DNA from: Arenicola marina
Lineage: Eukaryota; Annelida; Polychaeta; Arenicolidae
Assembly: GCA_964019135.1 (NCBI GenBank)
Contig: OZ025248.1
Location: 14,453,574 to 14,517,573, forward strand
DNA length: 64,000 nucleotides
Direction of reading: 5' to 3'
The position numbers were made by a program, and so were the translations under genes. How positions within the stretch are numbered: position 1 is the stretch's first letter; every line of letters begins with the position of its first letter. Under the pieces are notes generated by a model, which saw only the letters and a program-made list of their open reading frames with translations, was not told the DNA's origin and did not search any database. Shown one piece after another: positions 9,346 through 63,679 of this stretch.

Positions 9346-12300
9346 CTAGGATGCTATGTCTGCTGTGGAATCTAAGAGTTGACCTTGACCTTTGTTGACG
9401 TCACTGACGCATACCCAGTTGCCCTCCATGGTTTCTTTCCAGAGGCTGACCTGGAACGAGAGGGAAAGTCGTGATTAGTGCCGACAAGCCTTAACACGCA
9501 GTGCACAGGTGTTTGTCATTTAACAGTCAGCTAACATTCATAAGGTAATGACTGTGTCCAATTGTAATTATCACGCACAGCCATTAAATATACCACGTTT
9601 AGGCAGCTTTAACCGGTAAATCGGATTTGATCACTTTAGAGAAGAAAGCAGATTGCTCCCGCCTAGACATCCCCACCTTATTGTCGCCCCCGGAGACGGC
9701 CAGAAGGTTGCATGCCCCTCCCCTCCTCATCCCCTTTCCTACCTTTCCCCCCGCGGAGACGGCCAGCAGGTTGCCTGCCCCTCCCCTCCTCATCCCCCTA
9801 CCCACCTCTCCCTCCCGGAGACGGCCAGCAGGTTGCCTGCCCCTCCCCTCCTCACTCCACTACCCACCTCTCCCTCCCGGAGACGGCCAGCAGGTTGCCT
9901 GCCCCTCCCCTCCTGATCCCCCTACCCACCTCTCCCTCCCGGAGACGGCCAGCAGGTTGCCTGCCCCTCCCCTCCTCATCCCCCTACCCACATTGTTGTC
10001 GCCCCCGGAGATGGCCAGCAGGTTGCCTGCCCCTCCCCTCCTCATCCCCCTACCCACCTCTTCCTCCCGGAGACGGCCAGCAGATTGCCTGCCCCTCCCC
10101 TCCTCATCCCCTTACCCACCTTGTTGTCGCCCCCGGAGACGGCCAGCAGGTTGCCGGTCACCGACCAGCTTACATGCCACACGGCGGCCGCTGATTTGTG
10201 GAGCGTCTTGGGCGTCCACGCTGTCCCGCTGCCGTCATTGGTCCAAATGATCACCTGACAATCCTGTCAACCAATCAAAACACATATAGTCTTTCCTGTC
10301 GGCCTAAGACTTTGAGGAACATGTTTAGCTCTACACACAGTTGGATCATAAGGTTCATTTTTTCAAATGAACAATATCTGCGTCGAAGCAAGAAGAAAAA
10401 GGTTGACATAAAAGATGATAGCGTTTGAATATTAACTGACATACATCTATCTAAATCACCTTCATATCAGATAGAGAACGTTCGTTTACGCACTAATAGA
10501 TACAATGCCAGAGAATGCTCGTACACCTACTAATACATTCTATGTTGAGTATCCTGGTATATAATTAGATAAAGAGATGGCAAAGATGAAAGGTAAGACA
10601 ACGCACTGACCTGAGAGCAACTGGCAATGACACTTCTGGGCAGACCGATAGAGGGCGCCCATGCCACATCCCTCACCCAATCACAGTGCCCCTCCAGCTT
10701 GTGTTCCTCCACCCATTGGCTGTCCTCCTCCCTGGCGGACAAATACGGAGATTCTCATAAAAATCACTGGTTCCCGACATACTTCAATGCGGTACAGTAT
10801 CCAGCCTTAATCCCGCAGCGAATGATACAAACTTCAAAACTACAAAATTTGACACAGTCTGAAAAATATTGACTGCATCATTTGGTAGATGTAAAATATA
10901 TTAATTTTCAATATGTGCCAAAACATACCTAAATTATGGTATATAGCTAGACGACACTTGAAAGTAAAAAAGTAAAAAACAGAAGTGCGCAAATAAAACA
11001 CAAGCTCTCACCTCAATACAAAATATTAAGCTTTTGGGAAATCCACGTATATCGGTGACTCACTTCCAGATTTTGATGAGGTTGTCGCAGCCTCCGGAGA
11101 CGAATCTCCTGACAGTTTTCTGGCTTCCGGACGGGTCGAGAAGGCCCCCAGGATGGACAGCGGGACCCCAGCTCACCGCGTTACAGCCAATCTAGATCAC
11201 AACGCGAAGCAATCAAACGGGGGTTCCACAGGAAGACCCAACGAAGCACGCTTCAGTTTTATCGTCCGATATGATGACAATACAAATTTCGAAATTCTGC
11301 ACAATAATGTCTGGTTTGTACGACGCTTTAACCTCTATTGTCATGTCACGACAATGCGAAGGGTCGAGGTTGTGAGAAGCCATGTCTCCGGGAGTAACCC
11401 CTTACTCTTTGCGAAGAAAGAAAACAGACATTCGCGGGCGGGAAACGAGCAACGCACCGGCTGCTTGGGTTACCTAGCAAAGCACACTCGACAAGAAACT
11501 CGGAAGGGCTGTGCTTCCGCAACCTGTGGTTGGTCCGCAGTTACTCACGGTGTGTGCATTGTTGATCTTCTGGTTGTTCCAGGTGCCATCCCCGCTGCTG
11601 GAGATGACGGAGATGGCTCCATCGGAGCTGCCACACGCCAGCATCAGGCCGAACTCGTGCGGCGCCCACGACACAGAGTTAACTGAAGCACAGCACAATC
11701 TTCTCTGATCAACAAACGTCCATCGCTTCATGCCAAGACATTTAATTATAAAACTAAAAAGATTTCTCTAAAATATGATGTTTCATGAGGTATGACGCAA
11801 TTTTATTTCCAAAGGATGTTAAATGCACAACTCACAAGTTGTTGATAAGATGGTTAACAATACAACAACAGTTTTGCTCATCCATTCCGGTTCTCACCTG
11901 ATGAGTCATGGTTGCTGTACTCGTGAAGTTTACCCCATGTGCCATTGGTTTCCTTCCAGAAAATGACTTTACGATCATAGCCACAGGAGGCAAGCAGGCT
12001 ACCAAACATGGGGTGCGCCCAGGCCACCTGCCACACTGGTCCCTCATGGCTGAAAAGATTTCACTTGAATAATGTACATGTATAAAGTTTACATCAGCAG
12101 AAAAAATATTGCAAAGCACAAGACAGGAAAAAATGATCACAAGTGCTTATACATCATTTTAAACCATAACAACATTTAATTCTAGACACCCGATTATAAG
12201 TTGCTGTGGTCAGATTTTATAAGATACAGTTGATATATAACCTACCCTCTCAGGTCAGCAATTAATACTTGTTGTCCATTTCTAACATCAAAGAGTTTTA

Positions 12301-14359
12301 CTGATCTGTCAGATGAACAAGTAGCCAGTTTGGTCCCATAATAATCCAACTGTGCATCATGCTGGAAGTGGAAGCAGTAGCTAATTAAAAAAGAATACTA
12401 GTACATTAATAAAAAACATGACATCAGTACTTTTTTACATTAAATCTTATTATGTAGCATCGTAAGTCTAACATTATCTTAATACAAAATAGATATATTT
12501 GATTTTTTTTCAACCTACTATATATTTAGCATGGCAGTAGAAAATAATTGGTATAGATCATTTTAATATCTAATTTTAAAGTGTTTTTTTATATCTAATT
12601 TATTATATTTTATATAAACAGATCAAACGATACATACTATCATATCCTCATGGGTGGTATCAACTGAATTGATCACAGACACCTGTAAGATAAATACATT
12701 TTAAATTTAAATATGTTGTTTATGATTTTGTAAACAGGTTTTTGAATACTGATATAAAATAGATTGCACCCTAATAATCACAGTATAATGCTTTTACTGC
12801 CTGGTACATCGTGTGTGAGAGAGTATATCTATGTGTAGCCAGTTTCGTGTGTACTTAATTAAACAAAATCTGAGCTTTCAACAGCGACAAGATTTAAACA
12901 ATCGTAATGTGGAAAATTGCTGTATAACCGTTTCTTGTAAAATTATGATTTGTTAATAACTTAGTATATAAAAAATATTATCTTTTTGGCACGTTGCATT
13001 TGACGTTTTGCTCTGAATGTTGTGAAATACACAGAAGGGGTAAAAGCAAGATAACTCATTTCTATAGAAAAGATGAGCCGAGCTTTAAGAGCTTGCAACT
13101 TAGGCCATGCCTATTCATATTATTAGCTATTTAGTGCAAGTGCCCTCAGGCAAGCCCGCTTTTCTAGGGGCACAACGGTACCCATGCAAAGTTCTTTAGA
13201 CGCCAGTCGAGAAACGACTGTAGCTTTTATCATAATGTGTGCGTGCATAACTATAGTGTTGACGTATTCTATATACCTTGTTTTATCTTCTGACATCAAG
13301 AAAGTGTGTCAACACTATTTGTTTCGGTTACATTTTCGTGAAGAAATGTTGAAGCACACAACTTTTTCCGACCAACTGTCCGCCATATTTATTTTTAACG
13401 GATGCCGGTACCTGTGAATGCAACTTGGTTCCCCGCTCCGTTAGCATATGATTCTCAGCTAGAGGGCGTTATCAGTCGCTCACTTTGAACTTAAGGACAA
13501 TAGCAACACCCTTTGTCACAGGTAATTCACGGTTACAAAGTTCGGGACCTAGGCTACAAATGATTAAAATAATGGCGGGACTCGCCAGATGGCGCTGCAT
13601 ATGCATCATGGTTGGTTGGAAAAAAGGCTATGCTCCAACATTTCTTCGAGAAAATATAACCAAAACAATTTAGTGTTGACATACTTTCTTTATGTCAGAA
13701 AATAGAACAAGGTATATACAATACGTAAACACTACGATTGTACGCGCACACATTATGATAAAGGCTACAGTCGATTCTCGACTGGCGTCTAAAGAACTTT
13801 GCATGGACACCGTTGTGCCCCTAGGAAGCGGGCTTGCCTGGGGGCACTTGCGCCAAATTAGCTAGGCCTATATAACACATGTCACATGTCAGACTGGTGG
13901 GGTAATGTTGGACCTTTTTTTTTATATATATATATAGGGTATATACAGGCCATAGGACTTCCATCTCACGAACCGAGTGCCCGTGGTTAGGCCTATCAAA
14001 CAATGTCAAAAGTAGAAACCGCCAAACCACCTTATTATCGCCCAGTTTAAATCTAGGATGTTGGTGTCTAAAAGATTGCATTTACTATAAATTTGGCATC
14101 TAAAAGGGCTAGTAAATCACCAACATGTATTTTAAAATGAACCTGCACAGCTCACGGATGACAACCTAAAACTTTACAAAAGTTTAGGAAAATTGAAATA
14201 ACTTATTATCCAGTCGCCAGTTTCTCAGTAGGCACTGCCTTGAGTAAGTAAAGTTTGAGCACGGTAAGAAATGGTCGCTCTTCAATCAGGTCATACATTA
14301 TGTAATAGCCCGATTGTGATATTATTCAGCGCTTTAGAAATGGTACACCAACTTACCAT
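9346..14359 (-). CDS. SEC13: SEC13, COPII coat and nuclear pore WD-repeat protein
   Basis: Nine coding exons on the minus strand, in transcript order: 14359-14357 (only ATG, followed by GTAAGT), 12682-12638, 12361-12246, 12049-11898, 11682-11549, 11191-11064, 10731-10611, 10263-10120, 9450-9346 (TAG at 9348-9346). Total 948 nt, 315 aa; the human protein is about 320 aa. Conserved blocks include VSVINSVDT at the start, [72 protein letters not shown] and [17 protein letters not shown]. The family forms a six-bladed open beta-propeller completed by a blade from SEC31 or NUP145/NUP96, and acts at ER exit sites and in the Y-shaped nuclear pore complex. All junctions keep frame. Residue V2 is encoded in exon 2, so the initiating exon carries just the start codon; this first exon is the least certain part. 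The donor of the 10263-10120 exon is tandemly multiplied (separate entry), and intron 1 holds a fold-back element. Confidence 0.95.
9679..10161 (-). repeat. SEC13 donor-junction minisatellite, 62/66-bp unit x8
   Basis: The GGCCAGCAGG core (plus strand) starts at 9699, 9761, 9823, 9885, 9947, 10013, 10075 and 10141: steps of 62 bp, twice 66 bp. Read on the minus strand each unit holds the end of the SEC13 exon (coding GNLLAVSG), a splice donor (GTGGGTA-like) and about 25 bp of intron. The copy at 10141 belongs to the real exon. The copies at 10013 and 9699 also keep GGDNK or a near-identical end, while the 62-bp copies lack 4 bp there. Confidence 0.93.
11345..11432 (-). mobile_element. Fragment of SINE family 1 (unoccupied site)
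   Basis: The stretch around 11380-11420 (ccgggagtaaccccttactc on the plus strand) matches the body of the tRNA-derived SINE at 30.8-31.8 kb. It lacks the Harbinger-like insert and so shows the intact TTA target. It lies in a SEC13 intron. Confidence 0.6.
13124..13864. mobile_element. Fold-back element with about 250-bp inverted arms
   Basis: Left arm 13124-13372 and right arm 13612-13864 are inverted copies, about 85-90% alike by eye, separated by about 240 bp of unique sequence. Shared blocks include GGCAAGCCCGCTT, TGCAAAGTTCTTTAGACGCC and the CATAATGTGTGCG region. The tips read TAGCTA on both sides. No clear target duplication was found and there is no transposase frame, so this is a non-autonomous fold-back or large MITE-like element in SEC13 intron 1. 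Confidence 0.8.
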
Positions 14360-14530
14360 AATGACGTGTATTTGTTAATAATTACACAAATATACACGAC
14401 ACCCTTTTCAAGAAGCCGGTCTGCGTAACGTCAATGGACGTGGCCGGAAGTTGTGATCATTCCACAACTAAATTGCGAATCTATGGTTTCTGCAATAGAT
14501 GGCCACAAGGGGGCGCTACCGACCCATCTT
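14357..14530 (-). promoter_or_regulatory. Probable SEC13 promoter/5' end with ETS and CTCF-like motifs
   Basis: Upstream of the ATG-only exon there is a CCGGAAGT ETS/GABP core (about 14441-14448) and the sequence CCACAAGGGGGCGCTA at 14503-14518, a good match to the conserved core of the CTCF motif. ETS sites are typical of housekeeping promoters. The transcription start is not visible. No TATA box stands out. Confidence 0.4.
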
Positions 14531-17500
14531 CATATGAGCAAGGTCTTTAACAGGTTGGCAGCCGCCGTGAGTATGATCACCGAAGTAATACCACTCTGGG
14601 AGAGTTGGGTATTTTGACAGATGTTTCCAGGATCCATAAAATAATGAGCGATCTGAATTTTCACGACAGTGATCCGCTGTACGAAGAGGCTTACTTTAAT
14701 GTATGTACGGGGCCTGGTAAGAATTGACAAGGCTGGTCAGAATCGACAACCACATACCTACGTGTTACCAAATGTTACTGAGTAACGGGAGTGACGGAGC
14801 AGCGGCGGATCCAGGGGTACGTACCACACTCGCCATTTTTGTGATCGGGGATATTTATTTCCTATGCAAACTTACGCCAGCTTAGGTGCCCCCACCATGC
14901 CCCAGTCCGATGGATTTTTCGAAACTACCGAAAGGTAGACCTCCCGCAGTTTTTCTGGCGTGAGCGTGAATTATGAGCGTGAGCGACATATATGACCAAC
15001 ACGTGTACTGACGACCGGGGCGGGAGTGGGTTGGAAGTAAGTAGGGTAGGGGAGAGTAGAAACGGTCTCTACCTACATATAGACTTGCAGGATAATTGTA
15101 GCTTCTTCATGCAAACTGTACGCAATGCTGTGGACCGCGGTTTTAAACCAGAGCCTGAAAACAATTTAAACTGAGTTGTTGATTTCGTTGAGAATTCCCC
15201 TTACCGTCACAATTAAGGAAATTGAACAATTTAATTCAAGTTTAACTAGCTGGTACATGCTGGTACATGCATGCAAAAAGTAAAGTAAAACGATCTGCGC
15301 CTGTGTCTGTGCCGTATTATAGTAGAGCGAGCGGAAGCGTAAGAGCGGGGTACCAGCCTAGCGGGTCACATGATCGTTAGTCAACGCAGGATGTAAACAG
15401 TTTGCTACCGAGCCGGATGCCAGTGCATGTTGTTGTGCAGGTTCCTGTCAAAAGTCGCCGTAATATTCTCCAAAGGAAGACTTTAGACGGACGTTAAGAC
15501 GAAATACACATTCCTAAAGGTAACGCCTGCTGGTTATCAAGGTGTCGTGTGTTAACAAATTCATGACAATAGAATTAAGTTTATGTTTCATTATTGATGC
15601 CATGCCCATAGCTAATAGGCCTAACATTTTTCCCAGAATACTGGAGTCTTTGCTTCTGTGACATTGTGACTGGAAACCGAAACCGAAAGTGAACGGAAAT
15701 TGCGGCATCTTTTCCCATGAAATTTGCTTTTCTTTTGTAATTTACTTCATGCAAATTTGGGCATTTTTTTTACCTTTGTAATCAATTGATATATATGAAA
15801 TCTCGGCTAGGCGGATAAAAGACACCAAGAGCCTCTGCCTCTGGTCGGATGTGTATATTCCCTTTGGTCTAATGTGTTTGACCTGGATGTAAAGGGTCAC
15901 TGGATCGAATCCAGTCAGTTTGAACGTTCAGCATAAGTCAGATTGTAGGTTAAATATGCTGTATTTGCTGTCCTGCATCATTTATCATATAAATGTGTCA
16001 AATGACACTTTTCATTGAGCTGTGTGGGGACACTGTGACAAATTAATGTTAATATTTTGCATAGGAGATTTAAAGTTACTCATCCAGCAATATTTTTCTT
16101 AAGAAATGTAGAAACTATTTTGATTGGAAATGATGTAAGCTTATTTATATTTTTAGCATAGAAGTACACCTATTGTATGCTGTAAAAACCCAGATATGTT
16201 GTTAAGCCTATTTTTGTTGGCAAAATTAGTGCATCCTATGTGAAAAAGTGTAGCTTTCTTGTGTACTATATCATCAAAATATGCCTATTGCGGCAGTTTT
16301 ATACCTTTCATCATGCAATGGCATATCTATTTTTCATGAAGGTTATATTTATAAAGTCAGACAATGTTTACTTACATGCATTTCCAAAAAATTTTATGTA
16401 ATGAATTTTAGTGACAAGATCGAACAGATAATCCTGTCCCTAGTAAGTTATTTCATAATTAAATGATAAAGTAATTATGCTTCCATTCATTAAGCCATTT
16501 GGTGACAATGTTGCCATACTGCAAAGAAGGAAAGTTACTCTTTGGGACAGACTGGAAAATATTTCTTTTCACAGACAGCAAGAGGGAGAGTACTGAAAAC
16601 TTGCGGAGCACATTTTTTTAAGGGCTTTATTTTATTTATTTATATAATTTAGCAGTACATGCTGATTGGGGAGGGAGGGCTGCCACTGGGCACCCCTTGG
16701 TTAACCTTGGTAGTTGGTGATCATTGCAGAAAACAATGACCTGTATACATAATACACTTAAACACATACAGTGTGGTATGGATGTGGGGGTTGGGGTTGG
16801 CAGAATCATTTCCAAGACTGCTCCAAATGTGAGATTCAGAGATGGATATATAGGGGAAGTTGGGAGTGGATCAAGTTTAACATGTTTAATAAGTTGAAGT
16901 ACCAGTATGTAGTCCATTATTGGGTGAGCTAGGGCAGAACATGTTTAGTGCATAGCTACTGATTTATTATACAGTAGTGGATTCAAAGCTTTGTTTTGTC
17001 TAGAAAGTGGTTTCTGCATGCACTCCATGGCTGGAGATGTAAAAAAATGACCAGTAATATCACAGCTTCAGCATTCCTGTCTGGTTTGTCTGCAGGAGTA
17101 GGGGTGGTTGGTGCTAATGCACTTCGGGTTCTCAGCATGAAATTGTATTGGGTGGAGCTTCAACCATATTTAGAATGCAAGTGATTCATATGTGGACTGC
17201 CCTATGACTCTGTCCACATAGTCATACCTCGATCCCAAACTACATACGGCCATGTGTTTTCAGTATTGCAGTACAGGAACCAAGGGATCATCTTGTATTA
17301 GAAGAAGTAGAGGGTGATTTCCTCCCCACTTTTTTTTTTCAATGCAACATCCTTGACATCTTTTCAGGTGGACCCCTGCCTGTTCTTTGCATAAGACCAC
17401 CCCCCTCCTTCTTCTCTTGGACCTGCTCCTATTTGACCTATCATCTTGGATCTGATGAGCATAGGCAATATTATCTGGCTCTCCCTAATCGGGATACTCA

Positions 17501-17984
17501 GCTTACATTAATTTTACCTGCTCCAGACTGAGACAGAATGAGGGAGGGGCCGGCAGGGGGGCCTTTTTGAGTGTGGGGGCCAGTTTTTTTGCGCAGAAAG
17601 TACTTCTGTTGAGGTATGGGTTACCTTTTTTTTTGTTCTGAATCTCATGCACATCAGTTGTTTTTGGGAGAACTTTCTTTATCCAAAATCCTTGTTTAAC
17701 ATCCTGTATTATGTGTTGAGGAGGCGTTTTGACTGCATCACTAACTGGTGTAGGCATGTGCCTGGCAGAAGGCCTCCCTGGCCTGCTCACTGGAACAGTG
17801 TTTGCCAGGCTGTTGTACTGGAGTCTGTCCAAGGCCAACACATCCGACTTAGCTGTTTCACATGGTCCAGAAATTACAGAACGTGAATCCTTAATTAACA
17901 CTGCTACTGTATGGTCTAGTCTCTTTTGCCCATTCAAAGTCTTGCCACACAACAATTTATTTACTCTGTTTGTAATGCAGTACG
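14531..17984. other. Divergent intergenic region between SEC13 and the membrane-protein gene
   Basis: AT-rich over most of 15.9-17.2 kb. A 210-codon minus-strand frame at 18135-17503 crosses the next gene's first exon; I do not recognise its product and treat it as chance or decayed. The start-codon exon of the downstream gene is preceded by an acceptor-like TTTGTAATGCAG (to 17980), so an upstream 5' UTR exon is likely somewhere in this interval. A GGCGGATCCAGGGG motif at 14803-14816 recurs at 31.9 and 32.1 kb. Confidence 0.4.
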
Positions 17985-20900
17985 ATGGCAGGACGTAACT
18001 CACCTGTGAGCTATGAAGCTTTCCCGGCTGCACCTGCAACAACCGCTCGGACCTACTTTGGAAGAGTAAGTGTACGATTTTGGTTATGATAAATCCGTAT
18101 TTTATTTCAACTTCACGTTGCGGACATGTGTTCATGTTTAAAGGTCATTCCTCCGTATATTACTAAGCTCTATTTCATCGTATTTCTCGTGGTACGTAGC
18201 TAATGGCACATATGCAAATGTTACCCATTTTTCTGAAATCCTTAGTGAAGAAAAACGATTCAGCCATTTGATCCTGTAACTTATTCGTTAGAAGCTTCGT
18301 TATCCTCTTATGGCAAGAGAGGTTTAATATTGTTTAAGCTCCCCGAGTCATTGTATCGTGTGATCTCTTATAAATAAACAAGAGCTTCGTAACTTTATCT
18401 GTGTGTTCCATATTATTCTATATAGATATCCCGTTGTTCTATAGTCGATATATTTCATTGTGCATTTGTTTGTATAACTACCATGTTTAAATGGTTCTTC
18501 ATCCAGTGCTTTGATCTGTTCTTGTTATCAGCGTAGAAGTTTTGCCGGTCTCCACCTGCTGGAGTGGTTGTTCCTGCTGATCTCCATCGTCAACATCCTG
18601 GGCACGATGGGCATGTCTATATACTCCCTGGTCCGGATAATAAAGGCTGATTCCACATCCCCGGACGTCACACTCACGATCCTGCTATTGGTGAATGGAG
18701 GCAAGTATAGGTCAAGTCATCTATGAATCGTTGGAAAGGTATGAGACAGCTAGGGTTGCTATTACATGTAAAATAATGTTTTGCTTGATTAGATGAAATG
18801 TTTATCCACGACGATGCATAGGAACAGAGAGATAAGGGACGTTGTGAATTGCGACACAGCTAGCGTCATGTTACCATTTTATTTTTATTTATCCTCTGAT
18901 GGTGTAATTATTTCTCTGTTTGCAGTGTTTTGCTTGTTCTACGTCATAAATGGGTTGTTTCGTGAAAAAGAATTCGAAATATATGCGCTGGTGGCAGCCA
19001 TTTTGTTCGTTTTGATCTACTGTATTCTGGAATACGGCACAAACGCGGATGATAGGACCACGTTGAAATTGGTGAGTTTTAAATCCCACGAATGTTAAAA
19101 TACCAGTTACCAGTGACATGGCACGAAGCAGTGCATCTGACCATACGATTTACATTAAGCCGCGTATGATTGCAGCTCCTTGTCCTTTGGAAGACCTGAT
19201 TCGCATTATTATGAATGGAAACCTGGATAACTTAATGGATGAATTAACATTAGACGAGCGTCATCCACACCAGATTAAGTCTGGACCGATATGACAAATG
19301 ATATATGAAACAAGAACCAATTGTGAAGTAGCAATATTGATATATGATGGGTGATTATGTATGGCTTTACTTGCTGTGTGTCCCAGACTCGACTGATTGC
19401 AGCCTGCATCCTGGCACCAGCCAACGTGGTGCTCGCCATTCTCGTGGCGCGAGAGTTTGGCTGGCTCGAGTTCAACGTTGTGGGGGCTTCCGAGGCTCTT
19501 CAACGTAGGTCATGGCAGGTCCTTGGGTCCTCTGCAATCTCTCCACAAATGTTGGAATACCTGCGAGCTAAAAGCTAATCTCTGCCTCATTTAAACGGAA
19601 AATTGCTCGAAGTGAGCATCGTTTGGACGTTGGTTGGTTGTATCTTCAGGACGCTTAAACCACTTTTTCGCGTTTGAACGTACACCATTTAACTGTTGAA
19701 AGCTATGTAATAATAGTCCACTTCCTGGGAGGGTCTGTGTTTTACAAGATTGCGCCGTGACACACTGTTCTGTTTGGGTAAACGATGAAGCATAATTCTG
19801 TGAATAATTTGTTACTTCTTTTAAGTGTTGTATGTACAAATGCTATGTGTGTAGCATGCGTTTACAATATCGAGATGTTATATTATGGTAATGGATGGGA
19901 ATATTAGGCTATAACGCTTACAGGTATTAATATAATTACGAGGTTTTGTTTCGTGCTATAGTCTCAGCGTTTTCTTTCAGGCATGTATCGTGAAGCGGCA
20001 CTATTTGCGTCTTTGCTGACATTTGACTTACAAGTTATTGTACGTATTACGTTTGAAACACGATTTTTCATGTTCAACGTTTCGGTTTTCATTTAGATAT
20101 TTTTACATATTTTGTACAACATATATCACACAAACTCGTGCATTTCAAATTGGATTTAAGTATTTCTTCTTTGGTGCATAAATATGTTACCCTTAATCAC
20201 AGCTTATGCGGAACAGCTAGCACAATGGAGTGGCTACCTATGTGCCGTTGTATCTCTTCTCACAGGTTAGCTTCGTCATCCTGGTGCTGAAGAACGGATT
20301 GTCCGTGGACACCATCTATGAGAAGGTGGCACTGGGGGTTGGACTTCCCCTGTCTTTCCTGTTGTGTGGCCTGGGATATTTTTCAGTGAGTCATGCGACA
20401 CTTCAGCAATTGTTTCTGTCAAATTCCTGAGGAGGTTGATATCATTGGAGGTTAATATCTGTACCATATCCAATTTGGTGATATGATGTGGTGTCACAAC
20501 GGTGAAAACGAAACCAAAACATGTCAATGAAGATGATTTCTTTTCTTAGAGACGTAATGTACACACATCTATGTTCTAGATGCTTCGGGAGAGTCACTGG
20601 GGAATGGCTCTCTATGTCTGTCTCGGGCTCTTGGCCCCCGGGTATGTGTTCTACGTCATGTATCGGGTAAGTGACTGTTCGTCAATATGCGTCTTACATA
20701 CGTCATGCACGGGGGCGACTAGTGATATGCCGTGGGTTTGTTCTACGTCACTGGTTGGGCTAGTAGTGAGTCCAGGTTACAGTTGCTGACAGTGGTAATG
20801 GGAGTCTTATGTGCAATGTATGGAGTGATAGGTGTGCTACGTCTTATGAGTAATGAGTTCGAGATATGTGTGCTACGTTATAAATTGTGCGAGTAGTGAC

Positions 20901-22087
20901 TTCGCGATGTGCGTCATACATTGTACGGTTACGGATATTAGTTCAACGCAGGCGTGGAGACAGCGAAAGGGGTGGGATCATCCAGAAGGCCTGTCCCCCC
21001 CCCCCCACCCCCATTTGTGCGAAAATGTCCCGTTCAACCGTGATTGTATGCCATGTAAAGTGTAGATCCCTCCCCTTTTTTATACTGGAGCCCCGATATT
21101 ATTTTGTGAATCCACGGTTTTGGTACAAAGTCCCCCCTACCCTACCCCCTAGATCCGTAGCTGCAACGTCATGATCTCCTGATAACGATGTCTTAGTAAA
21201 CGTGTTGCTCTGATGATGGTTGATGTGTGGTTTGTATCACCTACGGTAGGGTGCGTCTACCGCAATCATCACCTTCAGGTATACATATAACGTGTAACGA
21301 ACAATGTTATGTTTACAGGTGAACAATATTATATACCATGGAATGGAGGACACCCCAACAAAGATGCTGGTGTATGGGACCATTGCTGCTGGTAAGCCAT
21401 TTATACGTAACAAAACTGCACAAACTGGCCTAGCTATGCATGTATACAAATTGCTAAACCATTTTCCAACTAATTTCTCTCTTGGTTATAACCTTATGCT
21501 CGGTTGATCTGTTTTGTTTTTAGTTTGTTATTGCTCATTTCTGCGTCTTAAATTTACATTGGAATTTCCGGCTGAATCTATTATTGATATAATTTGATTG
21601 TTTTAAATATCTGCAAACGGCTATATATGTTCGTTGTCGCGATAGTTGTGTGACTATCACGTGACTTTCACTTGATCTATCGCAGGGGTGGCTGTCCTCG
21701 TGGTCCGCATTGCCATCTACATCAGTAGCTGGAGGGTGTTTAAGAACTTTAACATGGGTCTGCGGCAAAGAGGTGAGCGCCATTTTGTATAGTAAGGAAA
21801 CCTGGCTGGTTGGCTTCAATTCTTGTGCGCGAGGCGATGGATTTGCATGCAACGCATCTATTTTACGTCTTGTTCGTGGTTGATATTATCTATGTATAAG
21901 GTTATTTTTATTTATCTATTTATGGATGATTTCATATATTTACATAAAATTATTATTATTAATAGTTGAATATCTTGGATGGCCTCCTTCTTTTCCAGTT
22001 GTCCATGTGTATATTTATGTGTTTTCAGCGTTCAATGATGAAGTAGACGAGACTTCAAATTTGCTGTCTGCTTCAAACCGTCGATAG
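17985..22087 (+). CDS. Uncharacterised multi-pass membrane protein, about 8 TM helices
   Basis: Ten coding exons: 17985-18065, 18532-18700, 18926-19071, 19387-19504, 19981-20039, 20266-20385, 20580-20666, 21319-21391, 21686-21772, 22029-22087. Total 999 nt, 332 aa. The N-terminus (MAGRNSPVSYEAF...) is polar with no signal peptide, then about eight hydrophobic segments follow, for example LEWLFLLISIVNILGTMGM, IYALVAAILFVLIYCILEYG, ALFASLLTFDLQVIVSFVIL and MLVYGTIAAGVAVLVVRIAI. The C-terminal tail contains ETSNLL, which fits the acidic dileucine pattern [DE]xxxL[LI] for endosomal/lysosomal sorting. I do not recognise the family; a transporter- or receptor-like role is not shown. Intron 2 starts with GC instead of GT (AG/GCAAGT) and the frame only continues if that GC donor is used. 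The exon 5 donor could be 20033 or 20039 (both in frame). Other junctions are canonical. Confidence 0.88.
19622..19690 (-). mobile_element. Tail fragment of SINE family 1
   Basis: The segment GGTTGGTTGTATCTTCAGG followed by ACGCTTAAACCACTTTT (plus strand) matches the tail of the SINE copy at 30.82-30.86 kb. It lies in intron 4 of the membrane-protein gene. Confidence 0.65.
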
Positions 22088-22261
22088 TTCTGATATCTCT
22101 GTCACGCCTCCAGGTCCAAACCAAGTAATCCCGGTGTATGTATACAACCTAATTGTTTATCATGTCTTGCCCTGTTGAACTGTGAAAGAGGCTTCCAGCG
22201 GGCTATAGTGAACCCAGGCCTTTTGTCCATGCAATTGGCCACATTTGGTGCGACTGACAGC

Positions 22262-22880
22262 CGGGGTACGAGTGACTGAGGTCTGTGGCACCAGTCCCCA
22301 CCACGGCCGATACGGGTGGCTGAGGTCTGTGGCACCAGTCCCCACCACGGCCGATACGGGTGACTGAGGTCTGTGGCACCAGTCCCCACCACGGCCGATA
22401 CGGGTGGCTGAGGTCTGTGGCACCAGTCCCCACCACGGCCGATACGGGTGACTGAGGTCTGTGGCACCAGTCGCCAGCACGGCCGATACGAGTGGCTGAG
22501 GTTTGTGGCACCAGTCGCCACCACGGCCGATACGGGTGACTGAGGTCTGTGGCACCAGTCTCCACCACGGCCGATACGAGTGACTGAGGTCTGTGGCACC
22601 AGTCGCCAGCACGGCCGATACAAGTGGCTGAGGTTTGTGGCTCCAGTCGCCACCACGGCCGATACGGGTGGCTGAGGTCTGTGGCACCAGTCGCCACCAC
22701 GGCCGATACGGGTGACTGAGGTCTGTGGCACCAGTCGCCAGCACGGCCGATACTAGTGGCTGAGGTCTGCGGGACCAGTCGCCACCACGGCCGATACAAG
22801 TGGCTGAGGTCTGTGGCACCAGTCGCCACCACGGCCGATACAAGTGGCTGAGGTCTGTGGCACCAGTCGCCACTACGGCA
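22262..22880. repeat. Minisatellite, 44-bp unit x about 14
   Basis: CCAGTCNCCACCACGGCC recurs every 44 bp (22291, 22335, 22379 and so on) up to about 22863. It begins about 175 bp after the stop codon of the membrane-protein gene, probably in its 3' UTR or just beyond. Because 44 is not a multiple of three and the unit lacks stops in one direction, three long minus-strand frames stay open; they are artefacts. Confidence 0.92.
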
Positions 22881-24555
22881 GATGAGACATTGAGGCGTTC
22901 AAGAAGCATTGCGCGGTCTGGTGTTCGATATTGCGTAGATAAGTTAATCTTCTAAACTGCGATAGACATGTATATAACTATTTTTATGAGACTTGTAAAA
23001 GCTATAAGAGGTGGCTATAATAGTATGGATGCTATAAACATATATATCGTTCAGTGTACTATAGTAGTATAGGCACGGCTTCGCTTTGCACGATGGCATT
23101 TCTGTTCGACGTGGATAATGTATATATCAGATGTTTTATATCAAAACACAATATCAATCAATTGGTCGGATGTGTGGTTAGAGTAAGAGACTGCCACAGA
23201 TATTTACGACCGTGTATAAAACGACTTCAGTACCCATGATTGAAAAACCATTATTAGTAGAATCTTATATTTTTATCATCTTTTAAATACTCATTTTACA
23301 GCGGCTTGCAATAGCCGCTTGCCCAAGCTAGAGCTTTGAGAAGTTTGATTTCGTCCTTCGTGCGGAGCCCATTGCGTATGGCTGTCTACTTTAGTATTAT
23401 TACAATGACAAACAAATTATGGGGAATTGTGGCCCCTGATGACTATACCGTGCCCACTTAACGGATTCATACTTGACTCTTCTATACAACATGTGACATA
23501 TACCACAACCATATATATATATGACATCTCTGACTCGGAGTTGACACTGTGTGACCCGGAATTGACCCTTACCCGATTCAGAATGGGCCCTTACCCGACT
23601 CGGAATGGACCCTTACCCGACTCGGAATGGACTCTTACTTGGCCGATAACATATGACGTCATTGACGATTATTAATTTTATGATTGAATATTAGGGAAAT
23701 ACATTTTATATAAAAGAGTGATCGCTGTTTTAGGTTTGTATTTAGGGAAGACACTTAGCATGGAAGTAGTTTATGTGTAATGTTTCGAATCACTGCATAC
23801 AAAGTAAAACGTGTTTTATACAGTTGCGACTGCTCTCATTTTATTGTCTTCTTTTGTTGCATGCGTATTTGGTGAATGAGTATTTTATTGCTGTATCGTT
23901 TGTTGACCAAATGATTGACTCTCCTTAACTTTGAATGCGTTTAGGGGTTTTATGTTTGCTGGCAGAATGATGCAAAGCGTGGATGAGCTGTTGATGATTG
24001 GTATGAATCTGCAATGAAATGCCTCAGTTATATCCCGTTTCATGTTTCACTGTCCGGTTAGGACCTAATCACGTGGGGTTCTGCACATGTTTTGCCATCC
24101 TTTAATTTATTTTGACATGCGTTTTGTTGATAGATAGGATGTGACAAAATTGATAAACCAGGCAAGATTTGTTTATATATATAGGTTAATCGCACAATGT
24201 GTGTCACAGACATCATCATATGACCTGGCTAATCAAAGGTATGGGAACAGGAATACATGCTTCAGCATTATACACGGATCATGGCTCAAAGAGCAGTTTA
24301 TGTCTTTGTATGACATTCTGGTGTTGGGCGTAGTTACGAGTACCATCTAATTGTATTGTTACTCAGAGAACGTGATGCTTCATGATTTTTTTGTAATATT
24401 TTTTTACGTACTGCCATCTGCCATCCATAAAACCATATTCAAGGTGCACGTGTGTTTGGGTTTTTTTATGGAATGAACATTTTACCGAATACACGCAGTG
24501 GTACGTCAAGGAAATGAAGTGAAAAGAAATGAAAAACGACAGACACAACTGTATC
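22881..24555. other. AT-rich spacer between convergent genes
   Basis: Contains a short tandem repeat of about 26 bp at 23535-23645 (core TTACCCGACTCGGAATGGA, 4 copies). No gene, RNA or element that I can support otherwise. Confidence 0.5.
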
Positions 24556-24828
24556 TGAAATATGTATTTGTTGTAACATGCAATATGTACGATGCGTAAG
24601 GCAGAATTAAATATCAATTGCCTTTGCGTATTACAGTTACTTAATTGAGCTGAAACAAAGCCGCGACACATGTAAATGGATTATCATAGACACAACTATA
24701 AAATATATATAAAATTAGTATTTTTTGTAACATGCAATATGTTCGATGCGAGAGGCAGAAATAAATAGTAATTGCCTTTACAACAAAGCCGCGACACCTG
24801 TAAATGGATTATCACAGACACAACTATA
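24556..24828. repeat. Tandem duplication, about 150 bp, 2 copies
   Basis: TTGTAACATGCAATATG followed by the CGATGCG block and, later, AAAGCCGCGACAC plus TGTAAATGGATTATCA occur twice, starting near 24562 and 24718. The second copy ends exactly where the fold-back element begins; the first copy therefore shows the uninterrupted sequence. Confidence 0.75.
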
Positions 24829-25332
24829 CTCAAATTCATTAATGCCGTTCACACTCCTTTTTGCCGATATCTTCGTTAATATTAGAGCAATCACCCAGAT
24901 TTAGACTTACTTTCCTCTCTTTGCGAATTATTTCTTTCTGTGTTATCCAAGGTAATATTCCATATGATGAAGCTCCATTGACCACAAACGTCAGCCATTT
25001 CACAAACTAAAACAAGGAGCGTGCGCGAAGCGTTGCCTGGCAATGGTTGCCATTGGATGCAATTGAGACAATGAATACAGTACACGTCATAACAAGCACG
25101 TGCTCCTCCTTTTAGCTTATTAGGAGGCAGACATTTGTAGTCAATGGAGCTTCATCATATGGAATATTTCTTTGGACAACACAGAAAGAAATAATCAGCA
25201 AAGAGAGGAAAGTAAGTCTAAATCTGTTGGGTCTTAGTTCAGTGCAGCCAGTCAGAAAATATCTGGGTGATTGCTCTAATATTAACAAAGATATCGGCAA
25301 AAAGGAGTGTGAACGGCATTAATGAATTTGAG
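24829..25332. mobile_element. Fold-back element flanked by TATA
   Basis: Left arm 24829-24996 and right arm about 25127-25332 are inverted copies (tips CTCAAATTCATTAATGCCG) around a 130-bp centre; the right arm carries about 40 extra bases. TATA lies directly outside both tips (24825-24828 and 25333-25336). The tandem partner copy near 24689-24700 carries the same CACAACTATA without the insert, which supports TATA (or TA) as the target. No coding capacity. Confidence 0.8.
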
Positions 25333-25525
25333 TATAGTCATTATCCCATGACCGGGTTAGATGCCGTGTCGTCAACGATATGTATATTTCGGCCTTCCAT
25401 ACTATGCATATATTTCACTGAAGTAAACCAAGCGTACGCCCTGATCGAGCTTCAAGCCACAATTAAATGGTGCTGACGCTTTAAGAAAGGACGCCACTGT
25501 CACAACCGAGCTGGCTCCTGTCATC

Positions 25526-28500
25526 TCACTGGAAGGTCATGTTGGTGTACGTCACGAGTTCTTCTGGCGTCACGTTGCCCCCGGTGATTACCACAACAAC
25601 CTTTTTTCCCGCCGCGTCCGGTACCTTCTTGTGGTAGAGGGCGCTGAAGGCGGCTGCGCCAGACGGCTCCACCACCAAACCGCCCCTGTATAGAGCCATC
25701 ATGGCCGACACCAACTCCTCTTCTGACACCAACAGAATGCCGTCCACGTGCTCTTTGCAATGTTTGAACGCGTTAGGACCTGTGAAAGTTAACAACACCA
25801 AAATATTACATTATATTAAATAAAAGCCTAGATCTAATTAGTTTGTATTCTATGCCTACATGCAATTGTTTCATTTGTTAATGCTTTATGGCATGATTTA
25901 TGATGAATGATACAAGTCTAGAATCCTTCATCCCAAACCTTCAAACCTCACCAAGACCGCCATACACACACACTTTCATTTAGCATTCATCGGGCACGTC
26001 TGACATGTGGCATATACCTGTGTAAGGTGGACAGAGGCCGCTTGCGATAGACTTCACTGGGTTTCCCACGGGGTGGCCTAACCGAAGGCTGTCGTACACG
26101 TTCCGCGCTGAAGGATGGAAGCATCCCAGAAACATTGTGAAAGTACACCACAATCGAACTTCGATCAAGCGCAACTTACGCTTAATCCCAAAACCGAACG
26201 CCATTTCCTATACTGTCCCATACGTTAAAAACTTCGGTTCATCGCAATTAACTTCGGTGTGTTTAATTCAAGTACAAACTATATATGTATATTGTATATA
26301 GGCCTATATTTACGGTCAGTATTGGCTATATATGTCTATATCTAATTCTATTATTTTACTATTATGTAAAATGAATGTCATATTAAATTATATTATGTAT
26401 ATATCTAAATTTATAACATGTACATAACGGCCTCTAGATGACTTACAGCCTTCAGGTTGTACGCCATATATGCGACAGTTGGTATGTCCAGAAAGTTTGA
26501 TTGCTGCAGCGGTTCCGGCCAGCACCGCACCCCCTCCGCAACAGACCACAACGATATCGGGATCTGAGACCTGCTCAAGGATCTCTAAACCTAAACTGTG
26601 TACATACACATTAACGTACAAAGCTTCAGCTCGGATAGTCAGATACTCGCGGATACCCCGCCCCCCCCCCCACCCTCCCTGAAAAACGGAAAGGCAACTA
26701 TATATTTAGGCCTTCATCCTCACCATGGTACAAAAATATAAAAGTACACGCATTTGGCAGGGGGTCAGAGAACCCCATGCTATTGGCTATTGTTGGCACA
26801 GTCATATTTCACCAGTCGATGTCAGTTTGTCTGGGTGTGGGGGGGGGGGGGGAGGGGGGGGGGTAGGCATGAAGCTAAAATATGATGAAGCTGCTTCTTC
26901 TTTCCCTGGGCAAAGTTTCGATGTCTAATATTGAGCTGACAAGAGTTGATATTAACTAAATAGCCTATGAGTGCTTGAGTTCTATACTAAACATATCACC
27001 CATTTATATTATCCTTTATAATATATAATTTATTCAGGAATATCCTGCATATCCGGAATATCTAATGTGTTCCAAAGGTTCTCATAGTAAACATATCACC
27101 CATTTATATTATCCTTTATAATATATAATTTATTCAGGAATATCCTGCATATCCGGAATATCTAATGTGTTCCAAAGGTTCTCAAGTGCTTTTGACGAAA
27201 AAATTATTATTTCCACACTTGGTCTACAGGCCACTCGTTCATCGGGCACGTTGCAGATATGCTCTGTAATATCGCAGTCCAATTGGGCAATCACATATAT
27301 GTCATATAGATTGGTTGGTTCCGGCGAAGATATCATAATTGTAAAGCCGTTGCGCCCTCTGCAGGTTAGTTCATATATAGATTCGGTTTTGCCAGTTCCC
27401 ATGTTTATATTTTCTTGTAATATATAGCCGCTTTAAGAATGTTTTTGAACGTTTGAGGGTGGCAGAGGTCTTAATTTATGCATGGAATGCAAGGGAGAAA
27501 ATTTTAACACGAACTGAAGGAAGGAAGGTTGCACTGTGAACAATTATTGTACTTACCTCCCGTGTCCTGCAATGAGATGAGTGTCATCGAAGGAGTGGAC
27601 ATAAAGCATGTTCTGTTCTTTGACGTATTTGTCTGCTGTGGGCTGTAGTTCCGACGACGGCATTCTCTCTGTTTCAGCCCCGAAGCTCTGGAACCGTAGT
27701 CCGTACAATGATGCCAAATGTCCACAATACTACGAATTACGGACCAATAAAAAAAATGATGGATCAAAAATGTGGTCTACATTTTGAAGAAATTCTAATT
27801 TACAATTAATTCAGCTCATCACTTATGTCTGAAACACGTGTACACGTGAGAAGTAATCTTCCTGATAAGCTTCCTATCAGTATGTGGCTTAAGTGTGTGG
27901 AGGGCGAACACTGACCTCTATGACTTTGGCCCTATTCGGAGGCGCTGTGTTGGGCATTAGGACCAAGGCCTTCAAGCCCATCTCTCCCGCCAGAAAGGCG
28001 AAGGCCTTGCCAAAGTTGCCAGCGGACAAGGAGACGAGCTTCCGGTCGGCAGTTCCACAGACTTCCGGGATGTGACACAGCTGGTTGATAACGCCACGCA
28101 CCTTGTAGGACCCTGAAAGAAAGAGCTCCGCTTCGCTAACACGGTTTCGAACATTGCGCTCGTCCTTAAATATGGTGCACCCTTGCCTTAAAAGGCAACG
28201 GCGAAGCCCCGGGGGGGGGGGGGGGCTCGGTCGGGGCGTTTTACGGTCAATATCCGCTCGGAAGGGGTATTGTGTTGCCGCAACCCGCTTTATGAACGCA
28301 CATTTTCAGAGCCCCCCCCCTTACTTTAGAGCGGATATTTTAAAACTAAAAAGATACCCATATAGAGTATATAAGGGTATGTTTTTCATCATTATTCTCT
28401 GCTCCCTGAGGCATCACGGGGCACCCGCGGAAACCCCCACCAGATTCGTATAACAGTGCCCCTTCTCCGAGGTGAAGCATGGATATATATGTTCAGAACC

Positions 28501-34399: not shown

Positions 34400-36680
34400 C
34401 ACTCCAGATTTAGTCACTGTTAATGTCCAATAATTAGACAAGAAAGTAATGATAGAATTATTCGCCGTAACCATGCAAGGAGCAAATAAATTATGAATGA
34501 AACATGGCTTTCCGTTATAATGACATTGACAATCTTCGACCAATCCTTGTCGATTTTCTCCGTCATGACATCAGAATGTTGGCGCAGTGGTCCACTTTCT
34601 GCATTAGCTTGTTCATGGACCATTTTATAATATTTAACAAAGTCCTCAAAGTTTGTCAACAAATCCTTCTACGGAGAGTTCTCTCTGTGGAAGGTTTTGT
34701 TGACAAAGCTAAGTTCATGAATGCTTTAGCCTAAGTTTAGGCTTTATTTAACTTAGATTTTAGAATTTTTCTCCTTAGCCTAGGCTTAGAAATGCTGCCC
34801 TGCTGTTGCCATGTCTGTGTTGTCGCAGGATAAAGATCCCAAGTCTTTCTTTGTAAAGAGTAGGGGGTTACCCCTGGGCACTGGGTACATGGCTTCACTC
34901 TCCCTTCCTTCTTCCATTGACGTGATATGACCAAATGTGGTTCAAGATATGAAACAGATATCAGAAACTGTAGACTGATTAAAGCACTGCCCAACATTAC
35001 AAACAATCTTCGCTTCCTCTACCTTAATTTCATATCCTATAGGCTGAAATGGCAAAATAGAACTGAGATACCCTTAATGATATTGTAACTGTATTAGCTG
35101 CTTCCACTCTGGAGTGGTAGGTGATCGTATACAACTCTTGAACAAATGTTTACTTGGCTGTTATTTAAACTCTCAACTAGACATATGACAACCTTAAGAT
35201 ATGTCATCCGATGGAGGGACTTCTACCTCCCTGGACCCTTACTCTAACTGTTAGTGTCAGGATCTAGCCATCTCACATTTAGGTTTTGTGGAAATCCGCT
35301 ACTCCCTGAGACTTACTGTCTTAGTCATTCATGCAACACCCCATCAGATTTTGTGGAATACCACTATTTCCAGGTAAAACCAATCACATACTGATGTACT
35401 CTGTAGGTATCTTTCAGAAAGAGCTTAGGGAAAGCTACATACCGTTTGCCTGTGTTGAATAAAAGTGAGTTCTTCTGCAGCTTTTGGCACTGCTGCACAT
35501 CAGCATCTCTTGCCTGTAAATAGTATTTTGCCAATGACTTCGTGTGCAACAATACAAAATTTGGCAGAATTTAACAGAATTGAATTTAGGCACATTGGCG
35601 ATTTTAAATTTGGGAAGAGAAGAAGGCAGTGCATTTGACAGGTTTGTGCATGGGTAGGGGGAAATGAAACTCTGCCCACACCTGTTATTGTAGACCAATG
35701 ATTAGGAAGCCACGTTGGGTGGTGTAACTTTATTCAGGTGCTGTCCTCACACTAACTACAATAGGTTAATCAGAACAGATAGAAACTTGATACTGGGTAG
35801 GCGCAACAGTTATTCATAAATATGCAGTAAGTGCCAGGAGTGCCAGACACAGGTGGGACACTTGTAATGTCAGAGGAAGATGTGAATGTGGTAGTCATCA
35901 TGACTGCTTGTATAAACAATTGATGCCAGAGTAATTGCCTTGCTTTACCAGATGGGATTATAATAAGCAGGAATACGGGCAAGGGTACTGGATAGCTGGG
36001 ATGGTGGCGGGGGTGGGGCTAAAGTCCAAGTGCAGCTGATAATATGTAGGTTTCTGGAAAGTGTTCTGGGTGCATGCCAACCCATTTTTTAGGCCAAAGT
36101 TGAAGTGCAGCTTCTAATATGTATGCTGCTTCAAGAAAGCAATTTACAGTGCTGCATGTCAGCGATGGCAATTAATGGCTTGTAGAAGGTTTAGGTTGAG
36201 AGACAATTGAGGGATGGTGCTAACTTTGGGGTAGACAAGGGACTGTGGGGAGGTGAGGCAATTGATATGAGATAGTGAATGTCTAAGCGTATATAGAGGT
36301 GGGTTGGGGGGCAAGTTTGATGTGTTGCATGCCAGATCAGGTTTCAGGGTTCTTATTCAGATATTCAATATGTATTGTAAGCCAAAAATAAATTGAAATC
36401 ACAGAAAATCTGCATATTGTGTTATTAAAACAATAATTGGGTATCAAAATTAATGGAATAATGAGTAAATGTGCAGGTGTTGTAGCCATGGTTAAATGTT
36501 GTTCTTGGTGTAGCATTTCCTCAACCTGGCTCCTCTTTGGCTGCCTCTGCCCACCCCCCACTCACATCTGGAGGATGCCACCTTGGTGGTAAATTTCTGC
36601 TAGCTCCTTTATATGTATTTCTCTGTGAACAGTTTATCGTGCATACAAGTATGCCTTTTGTATATCTTGTTGTAGTATGA
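34400..36680. other. Presumed NRF1 intron 1 / spacer
   Basis: Contains the SINE-1 copy at 34790-34965. A minus-strand frame at about 34640-34490 encodes protein-like text (NFEDFVKYYKMVHEQ) with no match I know; a decayed gene or element fragment is possible. The rest is AT-rich without recognisable features. Confidence 0.35.
34790..34965 (+). mobile_element. SINE family 1, body and tail, unsplit copy
   Basis: TGTTGTCGCAGGATAAAGAT, AAGAGTAGGGGGTTACCCCT and CATGGCTTCACTCTCCCTT match, in the same order, the two halves of the interrupted SINE at 30.8-31.8 kb. The tRNA-like head is missing or unrecognisable. Confidence 0.7.
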
Positions 36681-36692
36681 AGAACTTTAAAG

Positions 36693-39600
36693 ATGATAAG
36701 TGCACAGCAAGTAGTCATCAACAGTGGTATGAATGCCTCTATGTCTGCAAGCATCATGAGCGATGCGATGAGCGAACCCAGCTCCCCAGAAAGTACAACA
36801 TTCGATGATTCTGATCTCATAGCTGTCCATGATGATGTCACAGCTCAGCTCGTCAATGCAGGTAAGATATGATGATTCTGATCTCATAGCTGTGCATGAT
36901 GATGTCACTGCTCAGCTCGTCAATGCAGGTAAGATATGATGATTCTGATCTCATAGCTGTGCATGATGATGTCACTGCTCAGCTCGTCAATGCAGGTAAG
37001 ATATGATGATTCTGATCTCATAGCTGTGCATGATGATGTCACAGCTCAGCTCGTCAATGCAGGTAAGATATGATGATTCTGATCTCATAGCTGTGCATGA
37101 TGATGTCACAGCTCAGCTCGTCAATGCAGGTAAGATATGATGATTCTGATCTCATAGCTGTGCATGATGATGTCACAGCTCAGCTCGTCAATGCAGGTAA
37201 GATATGATGATTCTGATCTCATATCTGTGCATGATGATGTCACAGCTCAGCTCGTCAATGCAGGTAAGATATGATGATTCTGATCTCCTAGCTGTCCATG
37301 ATGATGTCACAGCTCAGCTCGTCAATGCAGGTAAGATATGATTGAGGGTGTGCACATTGTCCAGTCAATAAGATATGATTGAGGGTGTGCACATTGTCCG
37401 GTCAATAAGATATGATTGAGGGTGTGCACATTGTCCAGTCAATAAGATATGATTGAGGGTGTGCACATTGTCCAGTCAATAAGATATGATTGAGGGTGTG
37501 CACATTGTCCGGTCAATAAGATATGATTGAGGGTGTGCACATTGTCCAGTCAATAAGATATGATTGAGGGTGTGCACATTGTCCAGTCAATAAGATATGA
37601 TTGAGGGTGTGCACTGTGTCCAGTCAATAAGATATGATTGAGGGTGTGCACTGTGTCCAGTCAATAAGATATGATTGAGGGTGTGCACTGTGTCCAGTCA
37701 ATAAGATATGATTGAGGGTGTGCACTGTGTCCAGTCAATAAGATATGATTGAGGGTGTGCACATTGTCCAGTCAATAAGATATGATTGAGGGTGTGCACA
37801 TTGTCCAGTCAATAAGATATGATTGAGGGTGTGCACATTGTCCAGTCAATAAGATATGATTGAGGGTGAGCACATTTTCCAGTCAATAAGATATGATTGA
37901 GGGTGTGCACATTGTCCAGTCAATAAGATATGATTGAGGGTGTGCACATTGTCGTCAATAAGATATGATTGAGGGTGTGCACATTGTCCAGTCAATAAGA
38001 TATGATTGAGGGTGTGCACATTGTCCAGTCAATAAGATATGATTGAGGGTGTGCACATTGTCCAGTCAATAAGTCCCATCCCATGCATGCCCAGCCTGCC
38101 GTTTAGGAGAAATGGTATAACTCCCCCATGTTTTTCTGATGAGAATTTGCTTTTTCTCACTTGGCATTTTTTTTTTTTGCATTAATATGCATTACATGGT
38201 TTGTTTTCTGTAGTAGTGGCCTGGGGTAAGGTATTTCATTGTTGGTGGCTGTATAATAAATCTATTTCATTATTTAGGGACTATTGGAGTTGCTGCTGCT
38301 GCTGCCATAGCAACAGGCAAAAGGAGAAAAAGACCTCATTCATTTGAGACCAACCCTTCTGTACGAAAACGACAGCAAACTAGGCTACTAAGGTAATCAA
38401 ACTTAACAGTTGGTTCAACTGCTAATTGTTTCTTAAGAATTTTGTTTCATTTTAGTTTTTTTGTATAGGTACTATACTATACAACATAGTTAAGAAGGAA
38501 GTACCGGTACATACATCCTTATTGCGACTTATACCCCGGAAATTATGGTACTCATTTATGTGCACATGGGTTGCTTTACAGTTGCACTTGTCTTTATTTC
38601 TGATTGATATAGAACTCCATCCAAAATTTGACCCGTGGTCACCCGTTAACATCTACTGAGTGTGATGATTTTGAATTGCTATTGTGGGTAATTTAATTCA
38701 GGGTTCCTAAAAAAAGTACTAGAAAGAAAATTGTTTCAAGTCATCAAATCCTACTCCCCCCCGCCCCCCCCCCCACCCCACCATTCATTTTTGGATGTGT
38801 GTCTTTCTTTTTGTGTAGGTTTAGTGTCACAATCTTGGTATGGAAGTTTTCTAAGTTGCAAATTTGGAAAGGTTACAATACTCCCCTTGCATACTTTGCA
38901 AATAACAAGTGCATTAGGTTTTGGGACATGTATGTGTAGTTGGTGTAGTGTAGTTGAAGAGTCCATATGCCTTTATAATAAATACAAAAAAGTGGGTGAA
39001 TAGAATGGCTATGAGAGAAGGACCAGGCCACCTTGCATAAATGGTAACGTTTTTCTGATCTGTACCTGTCAATGGCTTTTATCATTACGGTGAGTAATCC
39101 ATATTATACATGCTACAAGGAAATCTGCATGAATCACGAATGTCATGGAAAACTTATGAAATGGTTTAACCAGAATTGTATGGGAATCCTGAAACTGTTA
39201 CTATGGTTTGGTTTGTCTTGTTTGACAGGAAGCTGCGAGCCACAATAGACGAGTATACAACCCGTGTTGGGCAGCAAGCTGTCGTTTTAACTTGTACACC
39301 AGGCAAGACGCAACAGATCCATGCTTACAGAGTCTTTGGCTCCCAGCCCCTGGAGAATGTGGTGAGTAGGAGCTGTCAATGTACATGCTAATTATATTAT
39401 GTCTGTGATAAAATAAAAACCAAAATTGTCCATAAGCGAAAGTGCTAAAGAAATGTCTATAAGCGAAAGTGCTAAAGAAATGTCTATAAGCGAAAGTGCT
39501 AAAGAAATGTCAAAACCAAGTTGATAATTTTCAAATTTTTCAGTTGTGAGCGAATACACATGCATTGAACAGCCGCATATGAATATGATGGTAATGACTT

Positions 39601-44206: not shown

Positions 44207-44221
44207 AGTATTGAAACCAAT

Positions 44222-46893: not shown

Positions 46894-63679
<16,786 letters not shown>

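Follow-up and report, generated by a model that had tools for sequence, protein, structure and literature searches.

Minisatellites templated on exon edges and splice sites in unrelated genes of the annelid Arenicola marina

A stretch of 64,000 nucleotides from the annelid Arenicola marina (contig OZ025248.1, positions 14,453,574 to 14,517,573; hereafter the window) raises the question of how tandem arrays in three unrelated genes came to have as their unit the edge of a flanking exon together with its splice site, and whether such arrays cover exon-intron junctions more often than random placement would have them do. The assembly has 762 contigs with a total length of 867 Mb. Five genes with 40 exons and 75 junctions were modeled in the window. 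The joined exons of SEC13 (minus strand), NRF1 (plus strand) and an AHCY-like protein, AHCYL (minus strand), translate without stops and match relatives; a DUF7789 membrane protein (plus strand) and a PALP-type dehydratase (minus strand) were named by Pfam. In the model of the membrane-protein gene, exon 2 ends at 18700 (plus strand) on a GC donor (ATGGAG/GCAAGT, the slash marking the exon-intron boundary here and below). No tRNA genes or Rfam families were found within the window. The best named relatives of NRF1, among the best 120 of 1778, come from Capitella, siboglinids and nemerteans, with Capitella as the nearest row in the tree. SEC13 is 78% identical to the Capitella protein versus 74% to that of Branchiostoma belcheri, and a 99% identical protein, standing in for the window SEC13 in the tree, groups with Capitella and Ridgeia, with support. 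Annelids do not form one group in either tree, Owenia being placed elsewhere in both and Helobdella also in that of SEC13.

The SEC13 array (9689..10155, minus strand) lies at donor 7 and has exon 7 (10120..10263) as its template. TRF and the splitting of the array into units, read against the gene model, bore out the eight copies of the original prediction, with units of 62-66 bp that consist of the exon-7 tail (GGCAACCTGCTGGCC..), a GT donor and the beginning of the intron, which is rich in G. GT is present in 8/8 copies and AG/GT in 7/8. By splice-site score, four of the seven decoys reach 8.1 compared with 7.6 for the real site, and the remaining three score 3.2-4.9; given the unit lengths, use of a decoy would shift the frame. 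The last copy is nearer to the exon sequence (0.89) than most of the inner copies. A 315-aa SEC13-like protein, for which the longest contig has 1,535 bases and may derive from RNA, agrees with SEC13 at 258 of 260 residues, and its sequence across this junction is the one that splicing from the exon-side donor would give. This joined junction is the only hint from a possible RNA, and it may indicate that the copy next to the exon is the one that is spliced.

In NRF1, the array (36804..37342, plus strand) sits at donor 1, with the first coding exon (36676..36861) as template. The eight copies predicted were recovered both by TRF and by unit splitting, with a unit of 67 bp; each unit joins 58 bp of the exon 1 tail to 9 bp of intron (CAG/GTAAGATAT). 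Site scoring found the donor to be identical in all eight copies (CAG/GTAAGA), AG/GT being kept in 8/8, and reading on into the decoys meets stops. A second array of 37 bp x 20 (37343..38073, plus strand; TRF) directly adjoins the first, and its unit begins at intron base 2 (TAAGATATGATT..).

AHCYL carries arrays at both kinds of junction, again delimited by TRF, unit splitting and site scoring. The acceptor array (47691..50033, minus strand) stands before exon 7 (47565..47712), its template, at acceptor 7. Here the 54-bp unit yields 43 exon-like heads (GGTCGCCTTGTCAACCTGAGTT), in agreement with the roughly 43 copies proposed. The AG end is kept in 40/42 upstream units, which mostly score 7.5-8.1 against 8.1 for the real acceptor, and reading on from the last unit meets stops. 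Opposite this array, on the plus strand, lies an open frame of 891 aa (47425-50100), probably an effect of a stop-free opposite strand and a 54-base unit divisible by three. The donor array (50632..51349, minus strand) follows exon 4 (51339..51409) at donor 4 and repeats a 19-bp unit (ACGTGTACCG/GTCAGTACC) about 27 times, as predicted, in two blocks; splitting gave 28 exon-like pieces, with a recognized GT donor in 25/28. These copies score 10.0-11.2 compared with 11.1 for the real donor, and they lack AG before the GT. A 28-base pattern modeled on this array had 0 exact matches in the genome, the window included, and is therefore uninformative. The two blocks are separated by a SINE-like insertion (51055..51244, minus strand; sequence by eye) with tRNA-like boxes that were seen by eye, although ARAGORN calls no tRNA in it. 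The tail of the insertion was also found beside the exon at sample locus L050, so the element is probably dispersed.

Two further two-copy events had been proposed in AHCYL. Both exist, but they are weaker than the four long arrays. The edge of exon 2 (63237..63300, minus strand) recurs once together with its donor (..GGGTACGGAGAG/GTTAGCC) at 62951..62991, where 19/24 bases match 275 bp downstream in an ungapped scan, and an intronic array detected by TRF (63012..63228, minus strand) lies between the two edge copies. A run of 200 N occupies 62371-62570 in AHCYL intron 2. The exon-8 case is weaker still: the exon tail has a partial second copy (47061..47115, minus strand), recognized by eye from an identical piece of 23 bases, in which the splice site is changed, and the donor 8 edge reaches only 13/24 in the ungapped scan. 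The statement that the membrane-protein and dehydratase genes carry no such repeats at their junctions held, as none of their 28 junctions reached 18/24 in the ungapped scan, in which two boundaries were one base off.

We then compared the number of junction arrays with random placement. In a per-event test, each array was reduced to a single unit, which could fall at any position not wholly exonic; the window arrays were merged by hand from the TRF output, and this merging and the rule of a 5-base overlap were fixed after the window had been seen. Among arrays of at least three copies, 4/18 spanned a junction compared with 0.71 expected (P 0.004). When only the 12 genic arrays were considered, 1.21 were expected (P 0.024). 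Lowering the limit to two copies made 29 arrays, again with 1.21 expected (P 0.030); for the 19 of these that are genic, the expectation was 1.95 (P 0.12). The six cases in one window, put forward as suggesting a mechanism, are not strong evidence taken alone, because arrays occur at about one per 3 kb in a 200-kb sample of the same contig and, with 75 junctions, between 0.71 and 1.21 arrays would be expected to span one in any case. Per base, junctions are not over-represented in the window arrays: arrays make up 16% of the window and contain 4/75 junctions, and an edge-repeat scan at 19/24 bases scored 5/75 junctions compared with 17% of random positions. The per-event view suits the history of the arrays better, since expansion followed the first duplication.

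Because the window had been picked for its junction arrays, we took an independent sample of exons, each with 1.5 kb of flank at either end, from PF00118, a family selected in advance. Of 30 loci of this family, two (L023 and L041) were excluded as long single open frames; the remaining 28 exons and one myosin exon (L051) made a sample of 29. A splice-site matrix applied around the profile match set the exon ends, and some weak acceptors (e.g., that of L050) are probably wrong. After the donors of L026, L038, L044, L045 and L048 and the acceptor of L028 had been dropped, 52 junctions were kept. In this sample, 4/21 arrays crossed a junction with an overlap of five bases or more, compared with 0.60 expected (P 0.002). 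Three are chaperonin donor arrays, at L025 (82 bp, 7 copies), L034 (55 bp, 11 copies) and L043 (about 30 bp, about 40 copies), and the fourth is a donor array at L024 (41 bp, 38 copies) that takes in five exonic bases only. A chaperonin acceptor array at L040 (1361-1527; 34 bp, about 5 copies) overlaps its exon by 4 bases, one short of the rule; its unit joins pieces of intron tail and exon at an ACCTGT repeat, as if a duplication had been followed by a deletion. When the required overlap was varied between 3 and 10 bases, P ranged from 0.0003 to 0.012, the 8-base rule, which loses L024, giving 3/21 arrays and P 0.012. With window and sample combined, 8/39 arrays spanned junctions compared with 1.31 expected (P 0.00003; 0.00001 to 0.00004 under rules of 3 to 10 bases). 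Thus the excess is repeatable and about sixfold over uniform placement in small samples (39 arrays), and by count alone 7/8 of the arrays passing the five-base rule sit at donors. Profile searches of the genome also returned 77 myosin (PF00063) and 133 kinesin (PF00225) matches; kinesin matches on contigs C390, C504 and C536 contain several in-frame stops and are possibly retrocopies or DNA of another organism.

To describe the background, we used 20 stretches of 10 kb (L001-L020) from 0.7-14.0 Mb of contig C1 and recorded units of 13-150 bp with about three copies or more. Minisatellites make up 23.7% of this 200-kb sample, in 62 arrays or one per 3.2 kb; this is no genome average, because all 20 stretches come from the first 14 Mb of a 77-Mb contig. 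In the PF00118-based blocks, 13.3% of bases lie in arrays. The sampled region is minisatellite-rich, as perhaps is the genome, and the junction arrays are one face of this.

The breakpoints of the units were scored in four arrays, namely the 67- and 37-bp arrays of NRF1 and the 19- and 54-bp arrays of AHCYL. All four share a few bases: GAT (3 bases, P about 0.06 versus random breakpoints) and TAAG (4 bases, P about 0.02) in the NRF1 67- and 37-bp arrays, CACGT (5 bases, P about 0.008) in the AHCYL 19-bp array and GTTGCT (6 bases, P about 0.003) in the AHCYL 54-bp array, where the overlap is seen with array copy 4 and one altered base, and not with copy 1. We also compared the opening 40 bases of the intron between 7 array donors and 50 others, the two two-copy AHCYL donors having been dropped from 59. 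Array donors had 2.1 GGG runs compared with 0.38 at the others (P 0.002) and a G fraction of 0.44 compared with 0.25 (P 0.0002), a comparison that takes in bases of the array itself where units are short. Within the intron part of the unit, GGG runs occur at 5/7 array donors; the arrays at the NRF1 and AHCYL donors are without G runs. A repeat family shared by the arrays was not seen: among nine units (36 pairs) there was no long match, and the three pairs that beat shuffles at p < 0.05 reached alignment scores no higher than 11-12. As a general rule, growth from the exon end was rejected, having been seen in 2/7 arrays only (L025 and L034).

Taken together, these data make it probable that the arrays originated from microhomology-driven tandem duplications across exon edges, followed by ordinary minisatellite growth and tolerated with an intact exon-side copy. 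The process would start with a tandem duplication whose two ends lie on either side of the exon-intron boundary and are joined where they have a few bases in common, and the array would then grow by slippage or unequal exchange, as may be the case for the other minisatellites of the genome. What would make the duplication tolerable is that a full exon edge and its splice site remain beside the exon; the other copies would lie in the intron and be removed with it. Outside SEC13, too, we would expect the exon-side copy to be the one used. The proposal that some process favors, or is tolerated at, exon edges is likely to be right, as the arrays are templated on these edges and the independent sample carries an excess of its own.

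A plainer account holds that minisatellites arise uniformly, that exons purge those wholly inside them and that some of the remainder happen to cross an edge, with no preference for junctions. It draws on the density of arrays elsewhere on this contig (62 in 200 kb, making up 23.7% of the bases), the lack of a base-wise excess, the P of 0.12 for genic arrays down to two copies and the fact that the window was picked after the fact. We consider it unlikely, as it conflicts with the excess in the PF00118-based sample (P 0.002) and in both samples joined (P 0.00003). Misassembled or inflated repeats at exon ends are a further alternative, and there is a run of 200 N in an AHCYL intron, but the copies differ among themselves, one array contains a SINE-like insert and unrelated genes elsewhere, on other long contigs, show this structure too, making an artefact of assembly highly improbable.

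The arrays might instead have a function, with decoy donors or acceptors that regulate splicing or AG/GT copies that act as zero-length recursive splice sites. Many decoys do score like the real site, and AG/GT is retained in all NRF1 copies and all but one in SEC13. However, the units, lengths and genes are unrelated, the AHCYL donor copies have no AG before the GT, and splicing at a decoy would introduce stops or shift the frame; we judge such a role very unlikely. Hardly credible at all is the insertion of introner-like or transposed minisatellite units at splice junctions, since the exonic part of each unit is the host gene's own coding sequence and no sequence is common to the units, even if the repeated association with junctions and the second array adjoining the first in NRF1 are what such insertion would leave.

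Returning to microhomology-driven duplication, a wider form of it can be put forward only tentatively, and we are inclined to doubt it. A junction-seeking duplication process of this annelid lineage, favored by G-rich intron starts (through R-loop or G-quadruplex stalling) and by microhomology, might keep making donor minisatellites throughout the genome. Several per cent of exon edges would then carry decoy arrays, which would supply intron gain and splice-site shifts as well as a natural assay of how the spliceosome chooses among identical sites. Apart from this wider form, G-rich intron starts may promote arrays at donors, and a part for R-loops or G-quadruplexes is conceivable. Should the bias towards donors and the G-rich signature prove to be genome-wide, they would tie the origin of minisatellites to DNA structure where introns begin and would offer a source, open to measurement, from which new introns could be made. 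The genes with junction arrays are natural tests of the cell's choice among many copies of a splice site. Splice-site strength alone cannot decide in NRF1 or AHCYL, because decoys score like the real sites, and the eight identical donors of NRF1 and the 43 acceptor-like units of AHCYL make position testable as a rule of splice-site choice.

Minisatellites overlapping exon-intron boundaries, termed mirages, are said to have been described at amphioxus Adh, and the original prediction drew a likeness to them. The likeness in structure stands, as an analogy only, the host here being an annelid and not a cephalochordate; we regard the two as the same kind of structure and the amphioxus cases as a parallel, with no claim of shared descent. 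In amphioxus, mirages are known at donors and acceptors (PMC3087553, PMC3902484), and, as far as the available portions of these accounts go, their tandem units span a donor or acceptor, many copies keep the AG or GT and regular splicing is reported to be undisturbed. The acceptor version, which had seemed notable, is therefore not new, since donor and acceptor mirages had already been described in amphioxus globin genes (PMC3087553). Among the annelid arrays, units span the boundary in the four window arrays and in L025, L034 and L043, with 5 exonic bases in L024 and 4 in L040. Both types of splice site are represented, by donors in SEC13, NRF1, AHCYL and the chaperonins and by acceptors in AHCYL and, with its 4 bases, L040, and the splice dinucleotide is retained in many copies, if not in every one (40/42 at the AHCYL acceptor, 25/28 at its donor). 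Copies at the edge of an amphioxus cluster escape homogenization according to the accessible text; here the last SEC13 copy is closer to the exon than most of the inner ones. Copy numbers of 6 and 3 are given there for the two BflGb6 haplotypes, compared with 43 in the annelid AHCYL array. Junction arrays occur in 3/5 window genes and in 4-5/29 sampled exons of the annelid, and breakpoint microhomology and G-rich donors, measured here, are absent from the amphioxus accounts in their available portions.

Other systems share part of this pattern. In the Rogers model of intron gain by tandem genomic duplication (PMC4974935, PMC3443670), a segment with an AG/GT-type site is tandemly duplicated, as here, but the annelid copies sit inside existing introns. 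Human internal tandem repeats in segmental duplications (PMC2812944) are likewise minisatellites, some of them at exon-intron boundaries and linked to new introns; in the accessible text they are variable, lie in recent paralogues and average 30-bp units x 4, and units templated on splice sites are not reported there as a rule. An earthworm metallothionein gene (PMC12783039) is that of another annelid with long intronic minisatellites and has exon-4 duplications that are absent from the transcript; the available part of that report does not describe junction-spanning units, and it is possibly a related case. Among the open-access papers listed by our searches, which in two cases showed the top matches only (20 of 36 and 15 of 196), there was no annelid report of such units. 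What appears to be new is the lineage, how often junction arrays turn up in a small sample, the size of their excess and the signature at donors, the mirage structure itself being already known from the amphioxus accounts. The 4 to 5 of 29 sampled exons indicate that junction arrays can be frequent, their commonness being an extrapolation. The available amphioxus texts describe mirages in a few genes; with the annelid arrays, which lie in unrelated core genes, structures of this kind arise in more than one phylum.
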